64,000 nucleotides of DNA from Mucilaginibacter robiniae (GTDB taxonomy: Bacteria > Bacteroidota > Bacteroidia > Sphingobacteriales > Sphingobacteriaceae), in the NCBI RefSeq assembly GCF_012849215.1, contig NZ_CP051682.1, forward strand, positions 1,116,001-1,180,000, read 5' to 3'. Below are positions 4,344 to 10,486 of this stretch, piece after piece. The notes under the pieces are model-generated. The model was not told where the DNA came from. It searched no databases and saw only the letters and a list, made by a program, of their open reading frames with translations. Every line of letters starts with the position of its first letter. Within the stretch, counting starts at the first letter, position 1. The position numbers were made by a program, and so were the translations under genes.

Positions 4344-4375
4344 AAAAAAGGCAAGGTTGTTACCCTGCCTTTTTT
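4344..4375 (-). terminator. Rho-independent terminator of the TonB receptor/DUF4249 operon
   Basis: Inverted repeat AAAAAAGGCAAGG / CCCTGCCTTTTTT with a 6-nt loop. Read on the minus strand it is a GC-containing hairpin followed by a T run. It touches the DUF4249 stop codon and separates that gene from the peptidase. The A/T runs on both sides make it potentially bidirectional. Confidence 0.75.
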
Positions 4376-5165
4376 AATATTGCGTTAGTGTAAGCGCAAC
4401 CGTATCAGACTGCATGGCCGTAAAAATACCGAAGCCATTGGTAATGTTGGTTGGCGGGTTAGTTAAGCTTTGCGATGAACTATTGGCGTTACTGCTTAGT
4501 GCATTAATGTATTCTTTATTTACGCTATACAGTATTACCCGGTAGGTTCCAATATAGTTCAACGTTCGGTAATAAAGATTAAAAGAGGCATTTCGTTCAG
4601 CATTCAAAGTAAAATTCACCAAATCGTTAGCGCGCAAATTGATATTGTAAGGACTGGGATCATCGTTTTTGAAAACTAGCACGTGGTACAGCGAGTCGGG
4701 GTTGTTCCAGGTGTATGTTACAGCTATATCACTGTTGTATGATACGCTGTTCGTGGTTGGAATATTGGCACTGGTGCGACTGGCTTTATAACCCGTAGGC
4801 TTAGCCGGCATTAGTGTACTGGCTGATACGTTAGCTCCGTTATAGGCAAACTGTAGCGAATAGGTTTTACCCGCAACCAGGAACGAAAGATCACTGTAGG
4901 TATAAGTACCGGTAGCTGTCTCGGTTAACTGCACGGTTTTGCTACCATCAGATACAGTAAGCTTTAAGCCGCTGATTAATGCACCAAAGGTAGCAGTATC
5001 AGTAAGGCCTTTTTGCTGATAAACTTTAATGCTTACCGGCTGACCGGGCAATAAGTAACCAACCACAACGGGTTCATTAGCCACGGTTGAAGTGGACTCT
5101 TTTTTACAAGAGGCCATTACAGCCAAAGCCATCAGCCCAATAAAGAAATGTATATATTTACTCAT
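4374..5165 (-). CDS. DUF4249 domain lipoprotein
   Basis: 263 residues. MSKYIHFFIGLMALAVMASCKKES is a lipoprotein signal with the Cys of MASC as lipidation site. The body (VVVGYLLPGQPVSIKVYQQ near the start, then an Ig-like strand pattern with KTYSLQF and NVSASTLMP) matches the DUF4249 family, which in Bacteroidota nearly always follows a TonB-dependent receptor gene and is presumed to act at the outer membrane with it. It overlaps the receptor's last base (start 5165), so the two genes are translationally linked. The bound substrate is unknown. Confidence 0.85.
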   Translation of the reverse strand: MSKYIHFFIGLMALAVMASCKKESTSTVANEPVVVGYLLPGQPVSIKVYQQKGLTDTATFGALISGLKLTVSDGSKTVQLTETATGTYTYSDLSFLVAGKTYSLQFAYNGANVSASTLMPAKPTGYKASRTSANIPTTNSVSYNSDIAVTYTWNNPDSLYHVLVFKNDDPSPYNINLRANDLVNFTLNAERNASFNLYYRTLNYIGTYRVILYSVNKEYINALSSNANSSSQSLTNPPTNITNGFGIFTAMQSDTVALTLTQY

Positions 5166-7930
5166 TATTTTATTTTCAAGCTCAGTGTAATGTTAGGCGT
5201 AAAACCCAGATAGCGGATAGTTGAGGTAATTACCTGATTATTCTGAATATAATATTCATTGTACCAGGTATTCACGTGGTTGTATACATTGAAGAGGGAT
5301 ATACCTATACTGCCGTACTTGCGACCATCAATTTTAAGCAAATCGTAAGTTGCCGATAAATCCAGTCGGTGGTAATCAGGCAGGCGTTCACCATATTTAC
5401 CGCTAATGGTTAAGTAAGTGGTTTTATTACCATCAATGTTGGTAACGGTATAGCTGCCCAGCGGTGCCGTGTAAGGGTGCCCGGTACTGAATATAAATAC
5501 GGCGGCAAAGCTCCATCGCTGCCAATGGTACATGTTGATGGATTTAAACTCGTGCCTGATATCTTGCGGTGAGGCAAAATAACCATCCTGATAGGCCGGA
5601 AACTTATTGCGGGCTTGTGCCAAAGTATAACCAATCCAACCGGTGTACAGGCCAACTTTCTTTTGCACTAAAAACTCAACTCCTTTCGCATAGCCTGAAC
5701 CCGTGTAATAATTTTCAGTAATAGTTTGCGTACTGCCGGCGCTAAACGGCCCGCCTCCACCCTGCTGCCTGATGGAATATTCGGTTAAACCATCCAGCTT
5801 TTTGTAATAGCCTTCTACATCAAATAGCCAGTTATTTGTTTCATAACTAAAACCACCAATAAAATGGTTAGCTGAGCCTACCGGGGTGCTACTGTTATTA
5901 GCCAGCGTCCAGAAATAACGATCGCCGCCGGTAATATCCTCCCGTGTTACCCGATTGGTAAATTGATAGTAGCGGCCGGTGGCTGCTTTCAGTTTCCAAT
6001 TACTGGTTAAATCATATGTTGCCGAAAAGCGCGGCTCCGGATAAAATTTACCTGTAGGCGTATAATAGGTGGCGCGCAATCCTGGTTGCAAATGGAGTTT
6101 ACTATTCGGGTCTATTTCCAGTTCGCCGTAACCGCCGGTTATTACGCCGGTATTATGCTGGTCAATTAGTTTAGAAGTATCGTTTTGCGTGTATAAATAT
6201 TTAATGTTCAGGTAAGATGCATAACCACCAAACAGTAATTTCACTTTAGAACCAGTTTGCAATTCCCAATCTGATTTCAAGCTTACATCGTGCAAGCGGT
6301 TGGTTTCCACCATGCTGTTATTTATCGATTTTGTAACGCCGCTATCGGTAACGCTGCCAGTCATGCCCCGATTACGATCACTCCAGAACCCGGAGTAGCT
6401 CAGTATGGTATTACCAAACAGCTTACGCCCGGCAGTAGTTGACCATTTTAAACTTGAACCAATGTTGCCTGATTTCAGATAATCATTCACCGTAATGCTG
6501 TTACTGCTTGATGAACGGTTAGGAAAGTTTAAACCACGCGTATTATTTAAATCATCCGAACCACTATAAAACGTCCAGCTAAAGGTGTTTCTTGATGAAG
6601 GTGCGTAAGTGTATTTGGCGTTAAAGTCATAAAAATGCGAAGATGGCGTAAATAGGTTGGCAAAACCGCCACGTCCACCGGGACCGCCACCCGGAGCATT
6701 GTTAGTAGTGGTTGACGTATTGAACTGACCAAAAATTTTATCGTACAGCGGCCCTTGATACGATCGCCTAAAAGCTACCAATACCGATGATTTGCTCCCT
6801 ATGGGAGTTTCGGCGTAAATGTTGGTACTAAGCAAACTTAAATCGCCACCAATGTTGGCTTCATTTTTATTCCCATCCTTACCACGAATATCAGTAACGC
6901 TGGATAGGCGCCCGCCGTATTTAGCGGAAAAACCACCTTTATAAAGTTCCAAATCCCGAACAGCATTACTATTAAAGGCGCTAAAGAAGCCATACAAGTG
7001 ATCTACCTGATACACCGTAAAACCATCAAACTGTACCAGGTTCTGATCGGGTGTTCCGCCACGCACGTACGCACCAGATGAAGACTCGTTGGTGGCACTC
7101 ACGCCAGGCATCAACTGAAAAGCCCGCATTACGTCGCGTTCGCCAATGTTGGGCAGTTTATCAAGTGCAGCCGGGGTAAGCTGTAAAACACTCACTTTTT
7201 TACTATCGGTATTCAGTACGCCAGCTTTTTTGCCAGTTACGGTTACCTCATTCAGGGCATTCATGGTCGGGTACAAAGCCAGCACCAATGAGCCATCCAG
7301 TTTATCGCTGCTTAACCGAAATACATCAGGCTGATAGCCTACGTAAGATACTTCAATGGCTACCGTATCGCTCGGTACATTCAGTAAGGTAAAGTTACCA
7401 TTAGCATTGGTGAGGGTAGTTAAATCTATGTTCCTGACTTTAACACTGGCCCCGGGTAATGATTCGCCGGTATTCTGGTCGGTTACTTTACCGGTTAAGG
7501 CAAAGCTAAAGCGAGTAGGCGGTCCTTTGGGAGCCGGTAAGGCAACTGGTTTTATTTTAAATGCCGATTTTCTAAACGAGTACATTTTTCTTAACCTGGG
7601 CAAATCATCCGGGCGTTGCATGATGTATAGGGTACCATCATTTTCAATCCAGTATTGTAAATTATTAGCCCGGCAAACATGCTTCAATACCGACATCAGC
7701 GATTCATTAAAAAAGTGTTCGGCAATATCCATTTGATGCAACGAGTCGCGCTCAAATACAATGGGTATCCGATATTGTATCGACAAGGTGTCCATCATCT
7801 GGTCTAAAGGGCCAGTAAAAAAATGGTCAACCGTCGCTTTTTTCAATATTTGCTTGGTCTGCTGCGCTTGTGCAGCTACAGATAAAATAGTTAAAATTAA
7901 CAGCAGTGGAAGGAAAAGTTTCTTCATCAA
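5165..7930 (-). CDS. TonB-dependent receptor with STN domain
   Basis: 921 residues; MMKK allows a start at 7930 or 7927. Signal peptide to AQA (about 22); STN (secretin/TonB short N-terminal) domain about 35-105 (MDTLSIQYRIPIVFERD ... WIENDGTLYIMQR); carboxypeptidase regulatory-like domain about 145-225 (GKVTDQNTGESLPGASVKV); plug about 240-370 (RDVMRAFQLMPGV, YVRGGTPDQNLVQFDGF); beta-barrel to the end. Such receptors take up scarce substrates through the outer membrane using ExbBD-TonB energy. The STN domain often signals to FecI/FecR pairs, but none lies here; the next gene upstream is instead a LytTR response regulator, 103 bp away. With DUF4249 it forms the usual receptor/lipoprotein pair. 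Substrate unknown. Confidence 0.92.
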   Translation of the reverse strand: MMKKLFLPLLLILTILSVAAQAQQTKQILKKATVDHFFTGPLDQMMDTLSIQYRIPIVFERDSLHQMDIAEHFFNESLMSVLKHVCRANNLQYWIENDGTLYIMQRPDDLPRLRKMYSFRKSAFKIKPVALPAPKGPPTRFSFALTGKVTDQNTGESLPGASVKVRNIDLTTLTNANGNFTLLNVPSDTVAIEVSYVGYQPDVFRLSSDKLDGSLVLALYPTMNALNEVTVTGKKAGVLNTDSKKVSVLQLTPAALDKLPNIGERDVMRAFQLMPGVSATNESSSGAYVRGGTPDQNLVQFDGFTVYQVDHLYGFFSAFNSNAVRDLELYKGGFSAKYGGRLSSVTDIRGKDGNKNEANIGGDLSLLSTNIYAETPIGSKSSVLVAFRRSYQGPLYDKIFGQFNTSTTTNNAPGGGPGGRGGFANLFTPSSHFYDFNAKYTYAPSSRNTFSWTFYSGSDDLNNTRGLNFPNRSSSSNSITVNDYLKSGNIGSSLKWSTTAGRKLFGNTILSYSGFWSDRNRGMTGSVTDSGVTKSINNSMVETNRLHDVSLKSDWELQTGSKVKLLFGGYASYLNIKYLYTQNDTSKLIDQHNTGVITGGYGELEIDPNSKLHLQPGLRATYYTPTGKFYPEPRFSATYDLTSNWKLKAATGRYYQFTNRVTREDITGGDRYFWTLANNSSTPVGSANHFIGGFSYETNNWLFDVEGYYKKLDGLTEYSIRQQGGGGPFSAGSTQTITENYYTGSGYAKGVEFLVQKKVGLYTGWIGYTLAQARNKFPAYQDGYFASPQDIRHEFKSINMYHWQRWSFAAVFIFSTGHPYTAPLGSYTVTNIDGNKTTYLTISGKYGERLPDYHRLDLSATYDLLKIDGRKYGSIGISLFNVYNHVNTWYNEYYIQNNQVITSTIRYLGFTPNITLSLKIK

Positions 7931-8033
7931 CTCATCAGGGATTAGGTCGAAGTTGCATTAACTAGTCAGAGATGGGAAATAAATGAGATAAGACCAACAA
8001 TAATGTAGACCAAACCGCCGCTTGTGCCGCAGT

Positions 8034-8747
8034 TTAATGCAGCTTACCCGTCATGCGGCTGATAGCCTCCTTATAGTTATCGCTGAATGGCACTTCAGCA
8101 TTACCTATCTTAATTCGTCCTTTACGGATAGATACCACATGCTCCAGATTGACAATGTATGATTTATGCACCCGGTAAAACTGTTCGGAAGGTAACTGCT
8201 CTTCCAAGGCCTTAATGGTCATTCGGGATAGAATAGGTTTAGGCTGATTAATGAGATACAGCTTTACGTAATCTTTCAACCCTTCAATATGCGTAATATC
8301 AGCATGGCTGATTTTAATGAGGTTGTAATCGGCATACACAAAAAGGTGGTTGCGGTTTTTTACCACAGGCTCATCGGCTTGTTTTTTGTTTAGCTCGAAC
8401 AGGTTTGATGCTTTATTACAAGCTTTTAAAAAACGTTCAAAAGCTACGGGTTTCAACAAGTAGTCCACCACATCCAACTCAAAACCATCCAGCGCAAACT
8501 CCTGATAGGCCGTTACAAAAATAACCAGCGGCTTTTGGGTAAGGCTTTTTACCAGTTGCAACCCATTAATACCAGGCATCTGAATATCACAAAAAATCAA
8601 ATCAATGGGTTGCTGCTGCATAATTTGCATAGCCTGTGCGGCATTGCGGCAACTACCTGTTAGTTGCAGGTTAGCTACCTGGCTAATATTATCTTCCAGC
8701 AGTTCTAAAGCCAAAGGCTCATCATCTATTATCAGGCAACGCATCAT
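8034..8747 (-). CDS. LytTR-family DNA-binding response regulator
   Basis: 237 residues. Receiver domain 1-120: acidic pair D8/D9 (LIIDDEP), phospho-acceptor D54 (FCDIQMPG), T79 (FVTAY) and K99 (LLKP) are all present. LytTR DNA-binding domain about 135-232 (HITHIEGLKDYVKLYL-like segment, then FYRVHKSYIVNL). Such regulators are normally phosphorylated by a LytS-type kinase. The gene overlaps the start of the upstream gene by 4 bp (ATGA), and that gene encodes a kinase-like ATPase domain without catalytic motifs, so a complete kinase would have to come from elsewhere, for example the divergent gene at 9407. It lies upstream of the TonB receptor and may control it (inference). Confidence 0.92.
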   Translation of the reverse strand: MMRCLIIDDEPLALELLEDNISQVANLQLTGSCRNAAQAMQIMQQQPIDLIFCDIQMPGINGLQLVKSLTQKPLVIFVTAYQEFALDGFELDVVDYLLKPVAFERFLKACNKASNLFELNKKQADEPVVKNRNHLFVYADYNLIKISHADITHIEGLKDYVKLYLINQPKPILSRMTIKALEEQLPSEQFYRVHKSYIVNLEHVVSIRKGRIKIGNAEVPFSDNYKEAISRMTGKLH

Positions 8748-9169
8748 GTTAATTGTAATTGCAGTATTACGGAGTAGGTATCTTCATAATAATCTCTGCG
8801 CAAAATGTATTGCTCAGGATAATGAACTTTTAATTGATTTTCGGTTTTCATGAAGGCTACCCTAGTACGTTCATCATGAATAGCCGGATTAAAAACGTAC
8901 TGCACACCAAAGGTTAAATAGCATTCAGTCAATTTCAAATTAAAACAAAGGGCAGGTGCCTGAACATTGATTATGCCCGACCTGAATGCATCGTCAACAA
9001 GCGGCAGCAGTAAATCGTGTTTGATCCAGCAGCGGCACGGGTTAATTTCTGTACATAATTCAATCTGCGCTTTTCCGGTAAACAGCTCCCGGTATTGATT
9101 GATGTACAGATACACATAACTTGCCTCTTGCTCTGCCCTAAAATATTCTTTATGAATGGGAGATATCAT
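8744..9169 (-). CDS. Degenerate LytS-type histidine-kinase ATPase-domain protein
   Basis: 141 residues from ATG 9169. I align it by eye to the end of LytS-type kinases, including the intact one encoded at 9407. YVYLYINQYRELF matches the linker pattern before the ATPase domain; LLLPLVDDAFRSG stands where kinases have LLIPFVENAFKHG (N-box); LKVHYPEQYIL matches the RLxxLYPG region; YSVILQLQL matches the final strand. There is no histidine box, no transmembrane segment, the N-box Asn is lost and the glycine-rich GIGLxN box is absent. It should therefore neither bind ATP normally nor phosphorylate. The 4-bp overlap with the LytTR regulator shows co-translation and argues for a retained role, perhaps as a binding partner of the regulator (inference). 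Confidence 0.7.
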   Translation of the reverse strand: MISPIHKEYFRAEQEASYVYLYINQYRELFTGKAQIELCTEINPCRCWIKHDLLLPLVDDAFRSGIINVQAPALCFNLKLTECYLTFGVQYVFNPAIHDERTRVAFMKTENQLKVHYPEQYILRRDYYEDTYSVILQLQLT

Positions 9170-9406
9170 GAGTAAAAGATTTTACTTTTAACCCTATATA
9201 ACGGCATTTAGTACTAGCCGGCAAGAGTTTATAGACCAACACCTGTTTTGTGTAGATAATTAGCCTCTATAGCCATTAACATCACCTTTTTAATGACTGA
9301 TTGTGAAGTTCCATAACAGGCATACAACCGGGTTCGTCGTCGCAATCGGCAGGCTTATCTCATTCGTGTGGCATCCTGATAAATTCTGATTTTATTTGTA
9401 CAACGT

Positions 9407-10486
9407 ATGAAAAAACTTATTGGTAAACCTTGGCTTTACAACACGATTCCGGTAGTGATATGGTTTTTGCTGCTGGTACTGCCGTTTTTATCAGGGCCAG
9501 CCAACATACCAGCCGAAGCACACCGCCATTTTTTAATTACTACAGTTACCTCCAATTTTTTACTGTTGTGTATATTTTATGTTCATACCTATTTTATTTA
9601 TCCGTTACTCAGTAACAAAAGCACAGGCTGGTATATTGTATCCAACCTGGTTATTGTAGCCTTATACTTATTGTATTGGAAATTGCTAGTAGCCGTACCG
9701 CATCAAGCTTATGAATTTTCGCACCAAGCCGATTCGAGCCACATGGCACACCAACAATTTGGCCCTCCTCCAGGCGGACCGCGCTACTACATGCCGATAC
9801 TATCGGTATTTATTGCTTTACTATGCAGCTTCTGCTACCGTGTAATACTGGATGATGCCTCACGGCGCCAACTGTTGCAGGAACGCGAAACGGTGCATTT
9901 GCAAACCGAGCTAAACTTTTTGCGGTCGCAAATCAGTCCGCATTTTATGTTTAATATTTTAAACAACCTGGTGGCGCTTGCCCGCAAAAAATCTGATGAG
10001 CTGGAACCTGCCATTGTTAACCTATCGCAGCTTATGCGCTACATGCTTTATGAGAGCGACGATAACAAGGTGCAACTAACCAAAGAAATTGAATATTTGA
10101 AAAGCTACATCAAATTGCAAATGCTACGCTTTGGCAACGAGGTTAAAGTACACCTTAATGTATCAGGCAACCCCGACCTATACACCATTGAACCTATGCT
10201 GCTGATTCCGTTTGTGGAAAATGCTTTTAAACACGGCACCGGCATGATTGAGCAACCACTAATTCTGATTTCATTAAACATACAGGAAGATGAGAACCGA
10301 ACGCTTCAGTTTAAGGTAGTTAATGCCATTAGTACGCTGGATGTATCAAAGGATAAAAGCTCGGGCATTGGTTTAAGCAATGTACAACGTCGATTAGCTA
10401 TATTATACCCCGGCAGGCACAGCCTGAACATATCCAGCCAGAACAACTCTTTTACTACCGAACTTACCATTCACTTAGGCAGCTAA
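9407..10486 (+). CDS. LytS-type membrane sensor histidine kinase
   Basis: 359 residues. Four predicted transmembrane segments in the first 155 residues (about 12-30, 45-67, 78-98, 128-148) are followed by a coiled linker and the His_kinase domain. LRSQISPHFMFNIL carries phospho-acceptor H179; the N-box VENAFKHG has N272; SSGIGLSNVQRRLAILYPG is the G-box region. All catalytic motifs are intact. The gene points away from the LytTR/degenerate-kinase pair (238 bp between starts) and has no response regulator on its own strand, so the nearest candidate partner is the regulator at 8034-8747. The signal sensed by the membrane part is unknown. Confidence 0.9.
   Translation: MKKLIGKPWLYNTIPVVIWFLLLVLPFLSGPANIPAEAHRHFLITTVTSNFLLLCIFYVHTYFIYPLLSNKSTGWYIVSNLVIVALYLLYWKLLVAVPHQAYEFSHQADSSHMAHQQFGPPPGGPRYYMPILSVFIALLCSFCYRVILDDASRRQLLQERETVHLQTELNFLRSQISPHFMFNILNNLVALARKKSDELEPAIVNLSQLMRYMLYESDDNKVQLTKEIEYLKSYIKLQMLRFGNEVKVHLNVSGNPDLYTIEPMLLIPFVENAFKHGTGMIEQPLILISLNIQEDENRTLQFKVVNAISTLDVSKDKSSGIGLSNVQRRLAILYPGRHSLNISSQNNSFTTELTIHLGS

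Follow-up and report, generated by a model that had tools for sequence, protein, structure and literature searches.

LytS-type kinases are encoded upstream of LytTR regulators, as in LytS/LytR, BtsS/BtsR, and YpdA/YpdB. This raises the question of what a much shorter protein does in the same position at a locus of Mucilaginibacter robiniae where an intact LytS is encoded divergently next to it. The window, i.e., the whole stretch of 64,000 nucleotides that was analyzed, encodes this protein at 8744..9169 on the minus strand (hereafter, the short gene and the short protein). It has 141 amino acids counted from its ATG and corresponds to the catalytic/ATP-binding (CA) domain of LytS without the DHp/His-box and the membrane part. 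The neighboring response regulator gene (8034..8747, minus strand) encodes 237 residues with a receiver and a LytTR DNA-binding domain (PF00072, 8e-22, and PF04397, 5e-17, both above the cut-off). Residues D8, D9, D54, T79, and K99, which we take to be the phospho-aspartate and its partner residues in the receiver, are invariant in the regulators of all six loci carrying a short gene. The divergent kinase (9407..10486, plus strand) is intact: it matches His_kinase in Pfam (PF06580) and has the phospho-His, the ENAFKHG N-box, and the GIGL motif. After the regulator gene come a TonB-dependent receptor gene (5165..7930, minus strand), which is its probable target, and, directly downstream of the latter, a gene for a DUF4249 protein (4374..5165, minus strand).

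A sequence-only reading of this DNA had placed the short frame and the regulator correctly and had described them as fused, which is wrong, since they are two separate genes that overlap. The overlap of 4 bases that it gave (8744-8747) holds for a regulator start at the first of two tandem ATGs (8747); a start at the second (8744) leaves an overlap of 1 base, and it is the second that matches the ATG from which the five orthologous regulators were called. In the six loci with a short gene, the junction is an overlap of 1 base (4 in the window when counted from the first ATG), except for a 2-base gap in locus L089 and a 20-base overlap in locus L110. A gene fusion or a sequencing frameshift was ruled out as the origin of the short frame, which is the same in five other genomes.

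At the level of the sequence, the likeness of the short protein to LytS exceeds chance. It matched full kinases of its own genome with an E value of 6e-6 (residues 13-140) and the full kinases of relatives with an E value of 1e-12 (residues 14-140), bearing out the resemblance proposed from the sequence alone. Searches with the window's protein at E values up to 1 gave no match in Pfam, NCBIfam, or the PDB sequences, and, among the five orthologues, two had no Pfam match and three had only unrelated ones below the curated cut-offs. We aligned the short protein with 30 kinases of the genus, comprising 13 of the 14 operon kinases (full LytS proteins encoded co-directionally before the regulator) and 17 divergent ones (6 from loci with the short gene and 11 from the 21 loci without it). 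In this alignment, it spans nearly the entire CA domain, with few gaps, through to the end of the kinase, and not just the final part of LytS as had been supposed. It begins just past the phospho-acceptor helices, and the whole N-terminal and membrane part is absent.

The loss of the His box, the N-box Asn, and the G-box glycines, all reported earlier from the sequence, was confirmed column by column against 28 kinases (11 operon and 17 divergent; the operon kinases L123 and L125 were omitted from these counts and from the profiles described below). In all six short proteins, the N-box Asn is replaced by Asp, the Asn of column 91 by Tyr, and that of column 108 by Lys or Arg, and the GIGL glycines Gly103 and Gly105 are lost, whereas none of the 28 kinases departs from the kinase residue at any of these positions. 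The phospho-His column is absent from the six proteins, and PF06580 is missing from the window's (no Pfam match). By these motifs, the short protein is a conserved pseudokinase fragment devoid of the ATP-binding motifs and of the phospho-acceptor. Histidine pseudokinases are already known as a kind, of which the CA-only form is a variant.

The structure of the short protein was predicted twice. AlphaFold2, given an alignment of 14 rows made of short proteins and kinases, modeled the window's protein as a CA fold with a pLDDT of 89.6. Since the kinase rows might impose this fold, the orthologue of Mucilaginibacter straminoryzae (L166) was refolded without them, from three short proteins only, giving a model (pLDDT of 84.7) with the same order of elements as the window's apart from two short strands. 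The best structural matches of both models were histidine-kinase CA domains: the top PDB match was AgrC for the window's model (6e52; Z of 12.7, 4.0 Å over 130 residues) and the kinase part of a bacteriophytochrome for the L166 model (9eut; Z of 12.2, 4.3 Å over 139 residues). The lists also included the GHKL pyruvate and branched-chain ketoacid dehydrogenase kinases, as well as the RetS-GacS DHp complex 7n0e. The HATPase-type fold to be expected from the sequence-only reading was found in both predictions, and the short protein is confidently predicted to have the fold of a histidine-kinase CA domain.

The short gene is known from a small part of one genus. Among 149 Mucilaginibacter genomes, six, including that of the window, encode such a protein of 140 to 145 amino acids adjoining the same regulator. 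A profile of the six proteins scored them at 212.6 to 226.8 bits in these genomes, while the next match, at 83.2 bits, was a full kinase. Draws at the family level (399 genomes, E values up to 1e-21) and at the order level (400 genomes, E values up to 1e-22) recovered five of the same six genes and no further short frame above these cut-offs; both draws overlap the genus set, genome G403 is among the matches of neither, and remoter short proteins below the cut-offs would escape them. A first scan of contigs that used only the short protein produced 72 pattern matches, of which none was confirmed. The other short proteins are 35 to 44% identical to the window's, with 23 invariant columns, and the regulators of the same loci are 67 to 82% identical to the window's. 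The sequence-only reading had called for a search for orthologues sharing both the lesions and the overlap with the regulator gene: the lesions recur in all six proteins, beside the same regulator, but the overlap is not uniform (L089 and L110).

The surroundings of the regulator were compared in 41 loci, namely, the window and 40 loci hand-picked from a ranked list of the genus (its top and some lower ranks), so that the counts of the following classes are not frequencies. Class A, in which a divergent LytS, the short gene, and the regulator occur together, comprises 6 loci; class B, with a divergent LytS and the regulator but no short gene, comprises 21; and in the 14 loci of class C, a full LytS is co-directional with the regulator and ends within 10 bases of its start. 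A divergent LytS was found at E values up to 1e-100 in 26 of the 149 genomes of the genus. In the regulator tree, 11 of the 14 C loci, with the other three serving as outgroup, split from A and B with a support of 99/99; the order within A and B is not resolved by the tree, and a single clade of short-bearing loci was not rejected (p-AU of 0.33). At least two close relatives of the regulator are present in each of the genomes G389, G342, and G386, and G389 has one copy with a divergent kinase (class B) and another with an operon kinase (class C). Since some genomes have several copies, the compared loci are partly paralogues. In the incomplete metagenome-assembled genome of L158, the divergent LytS is split into open reading frames of 120 and 250 amino acids, and that of L094 has 250 amino acids; these are either broken genes or assembly errors.

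Several features tie the short gene to the operon kinases of class C. The kinase and regulator genes overlap by 4 bases (ATGA) at 11 named C loci, several of which lie in the same genomes as the 41 loci, and 9 of these 11 have ATGATG as in the window. For all six short proteins, a profile of 11 operon kinases outscored a profile of 17 divergent ones by 10 to 29 bits, which disfavors a descent from the divergent kinase. The best tree also places the short proteins with the operon kinases (support of 91/84), without a significant preference over a grouping with the divergent kinases (p-AU of 0.17). Moreover, the full kinases that best match the short protein adjoin related regulators in the C position. 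Given that these best relatives hold the same slot before related regulators, the short protein is most likely the remainder of the original operon kinase, a point that the tree alone does not settle. A C-type operon would have gained a second, divergent LytS, its first kinase would have shrunk to the CA domain, and the short gene would later have been lost altogether in the B loci. A blast of the 21 B loci for remnants of the short gene gave a best E value of 0.085 and nothing credible. The short protein is therefore dispensable in many species, 21 of the 41 loci having a divergent kinase and neither a short gene nor a detectable remnant of it.

A DHp remnant hidden upstream of the short frame was looked for by blast with the operon kinases and was rejected, since the best 20 rows, which came from the window, L087, L088, and L110 (L086 and L089 were not among them), all fell within the short frame. 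One row of L087 runs up to 11 codons upstream of the conserved start, inside an alternative frame of 152 amino acids.

The circuit of the regulator can be approached through its putative DNA sites. A conserved LytTR-like site, GTCTACA-N12-TTATCTCAT (7983..8010, minus strand), lies upstream of the TonB receptor gene, in the intergenic region between the latter and the regulator, and a second, less perfect copy (9336..9363, plus strand) faces the divergent LytS gene. Written in full, the former is TGGTCTACA-N12-TTATCTCAT, i.e., two 9-mers at a spacing of 12 bases, which fits the repeats of 9 to 11 bases with spacers of 11 to 13 bases given for LytTR regulators in PMC4847170. We built a weight matrix from 13 training sites, two of them from short-bearing loci (L088 and L110) and none from the window. 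In the 64-kb window, its best match was at 7984-8012 on the minus strand (28.5 of 28.7 possible bits) and its second at 9334-9362, facing the divergent LytS (20.4 bits), while the third reached 10.2 bits. In each of the six A loci, one site precedes the TonB receptor (25 to 28.5 bits) and another faces LytS (15 to 28.5 bits).

A TonB-receptor family gene directly follows the regulator in 26 of the 41 loci and lies beyond the kinase in 3 more; in L103, L108, and L109, where it is on the other side of the kinase, the site moves along with it. A site of at least 17 bits precedes the receptor gene in 24 of the 29 loci where this gene is next to the regulator or the kinase, 14 of the 24 having trained the matrix (13 distinct sites), which leaves an independent count of 10 of 15. 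Of the 12 loci without an adjacent TonB receptor, L123 is the only one with a site above 17 bits, which lies before its operon kinase. L086 and L087 have a weaker related repeat (12.5 bits) before the short gene. In the whole genome (5.0 Mb), the degenerate pattern had two perfect matches, both at this locus, a uniqueness that is partly built in because the degenerate positions were chosen after both sites were known. With up to 2 mismatches, the pattern had 9 matches and its reversed control 25, the mismatch levels of the latter not being given. The loose pattern with 3 mismatches was uninformative, as its 133+138 matches in the genome were fewer than those of the reversed control (205+204), and a scan for consensus promoters revealed nothing above chance.

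Since a conserved LytTR-like site stands before both genes, the divergent LytS very probably belongs to the circuit of this regulator, which probably controls the TonB receptor gene. The sequence-only reading had suggested that the intact kinase at 9407 serves the regulator, and the conserved neighborhood together with the shared site makes this probable. In genome G226, an inserted peptidase gene that has a site of its own parts the divergent kinase from the operon, and the short gene stays with the regulator. In L110 and L166 (M. straminoryzae), the gene between the divergent LytS and the short gene encodes an S41 peptidase (the Pfam match was made on L166). A LytTR-like site of 21.6 bits faces it, and to judge from this site the regulator may have gained the peptidase gene as a target. 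In L087 (genome G205), about 820 to 1,210 bases after the regulator start, the TonB receptor is reduced to a fragment of 129 amino acids, with the site intact.

Is the short protein still of use to the cells that keep it? For the closest pair (L086 and L087), the short gene has a dN/dS of 0.20 and the regulator one of 0.02; in 13 of the 15 pairs, the short gene is saturated at synonymous sites, and no ratio is given for these. Pair by pair, the short protein has a dN 2 to 9 times as high as the regulator's. In simulations of neutral evolution, so few amino acid changes were found in none of 1,000 runs for the closest pair and in none of 500 runs for the window versus L088. This ratio and these simulations establish that the short protein is under purifying selection and, with the same lesions in six species, uphold the earlier view of a reduced kinase gene, one that selection keeps. 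A functionless, decaying pseudogene of the old operon kinase would account for the lost catalytic residues and for relatives having either a full kinase or nothing in that slot, but it is scarcely credible beside an intact frame of 140 to 145 amino acids in six species despite the synonymous saturation, a ratio of 0.20 in the closest pair, and simulated drift that stayed free of stops in only 2 of 500 runs for the window and L088 (though in 53 of 1,000 for the closest pair). The sequence-only reading had taken full kinases in close relatives as a sign of merely recent decay: relatives do encode the full kinase in this slot, but the remnant is old and selected, and recent decay was ruled out by the orthologues with the same lesions and by the tests of selection. 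It is improbable, too, that the frame is a leader for the translational coupling of the regulator with a functionless peptide. In all six loci, the stop and the start are overlapping or almost adjacent, as in the full operon kinases, but selection acts at the level of amino acids, 23 residues are invariant, the fold is kept, and the junction itself is not conserved, as seen in the gap of L089 and the long overlap of L110.

Because selection preserves it, the remnant is probably still at work, tuning either the regulator or the new kinase. A CA domain normally contacts two partners, the DHp domain and the receiver, and in the most likely reading, to which we give about even chances, the short protein binds the regulator or the new kinase's DHp domain non-catalytically. 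The sequence-only reading had proposed that it could sequester or tune the regulator; the DHp domain of the divergent kinase, or some other ligand, could equally be what it binds. We infer a descent from the operon kinase, a takeover by the divergent kinase, a coupled translation, and a binding function with a given sign, which would unfold as follows. The operon's original kinase would have left its CA domain as the 141-residue protein while the divergently encoded, intact LytS took over the kinase role. The old kinase would have lost its membrane, DHp, and ATP-binding functions and kept the CA fold in a small soluble protein whose synthesis overlapping translation would keep in step with that of the regulator. 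In the way of a CA domain, this protein would occupy either the regulator's receiver or the new kinase's DHp domain and thereby lower or buffer the phosphorylation of the regulator and its output at the promoter of the TonB receptor gene. As to the partner, genetic linkage favors the regulator, with G226 as the one case. A co-evolution scan including 26 divergent kinases (one split kinase was dropped) found two regulator columns (G31 and N35) specific to short-bearing loci and no such kinase column; column 30 of the regulator and columns 209 and 355 of the kinase are conserved in loci lacking the short gene and more relaxed where it is present. This signal names no convincing partner. If the short protein does act by binding, there is a sizable minority chance that the divergent LytS is the partner and that the dead CA domain docks on its DHp helices, displacing the CA domain of that kinase, and blocks autophosphorylation in the manner of RetS on GacS. 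The operon and divergent kinases closely resemble each other in their DHp sequences, the RetS-GacS DHp complex is among the structural matches, and heterodimerization with RetS inhibits the autophosphorylation of GacS according to PMC12189002. Nevertheless, the short gene abuts the regulator gene and not that of the kinase, from which it is separated in G226, and no column of the divergent kinase is specific to short-bearing loci. A reuse of the pocket, with the short protein binding a small molecule other than ATP and serving the regulator as a soluble sensor, seems unlikely. The residues His51, Asp60, Tyr91, and Glu100-Arg101, invariant in the six proteins, would line or flank the former nucleotide site, all 28 kinases have Pro for His51 and Asn for Asp60 and Tyr91 (positions 100 and 101 are variable), and the predicted fold is well kept; the placement of these residues in the pocket comes from the alignment. 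Returning to a partner-binding CA domain, the fullest form of this reading holds that the displaced kinase, reduced to a soluble CA domain without DHp and dead for ATP, became a dedicated third component that sets the gain of the system by binding the regulator or the incoming kinase. We advance it tentatively, as a possibility somewhat short of even chances. If true, the locus would be a frozen intermediate of kinase replacement and would point to a class of CA-only accessory proteins.

Among known systems, the closest are the LytS-type operon kinases, with which the short gene shares the slot, the 4-base overlap with the regulator (11 named loci), and a homologous CA domain. Unlike them, the short protein has no membrane part and neither DHp nor phospho-His, and its N-box Asn and G-box glycines are replaced in all six species. 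Small degenerate or stand-alone GHKL folds acting on signaling partners are found in phosphotransferases of the ChpT/Spo0B type and in single GHKL domains of the SpoIIAB/RsbW type; ChpT keeps the DHp and the phospho-His, and SpoIIAB and RsbW still bind ATP and act as Ser kinases. With pseudokinases of the DivL and RetS kind, the short protein has in common the kinase homology, the loss of catalytic residues, and the conservation by selection, but it has no DHp for docking. As a large hybrid kinase, RetS also includes DHp, receiver, and membrane parts, whereas the short protein is CA only; the kinase region of RetS is matched by the short-protein model in the structural search. According to PMC12189002, RetS is a kinase relative that lowers GacS activity through heterodimerization. 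DivL, a pseudo-histidine kinase of Caulobacter, is presented in PMC4211667 as having a catalytic region repurposed into a phospho-specific binder of a response regulator, with PAS, DHp, and CA domains and a crystallized kinase region that looks conventional apart from Tyr550, which takes the place of the phospho-His. The short protein differs from DivL in lacking the DHp, and for it the binding of a regulator is proposed here by analogy. Judging by titles and abstract openings, none of the open-access papers listed by full-text searches deals with a dead CA domain that stands alone and shares its locus with a LytTR regulator, which is weak evidence of absence, as subscription papers mostly fall outside this scope.

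To our knowledge, two-component systems can rewire by swapping their kinase, and intermediates are rarely caught. Here, one genus presents three states among related regulator loci, i.e., a full operon kinase, a remnant with a divergent kinase, and a divergent kinase alone, which makes kinase replacement directly testable. The minimal CA-only module also poses the question of whether the CA domain of a kinase can control a response regulator by itself. Another truncated LytS was observed upstream of a LytTR regulator in L233, from a metagenome-assembled genome of Candidatus Symbiothrix. Its open reading frame of 154 amino acids stops some 9 bases short of the regulator match at 5001 and keeps ENAFKHG and a glycine motif; it is perhaps a recent truncation or a matter of a different start, and it contrasts with the long-dead version of the window.
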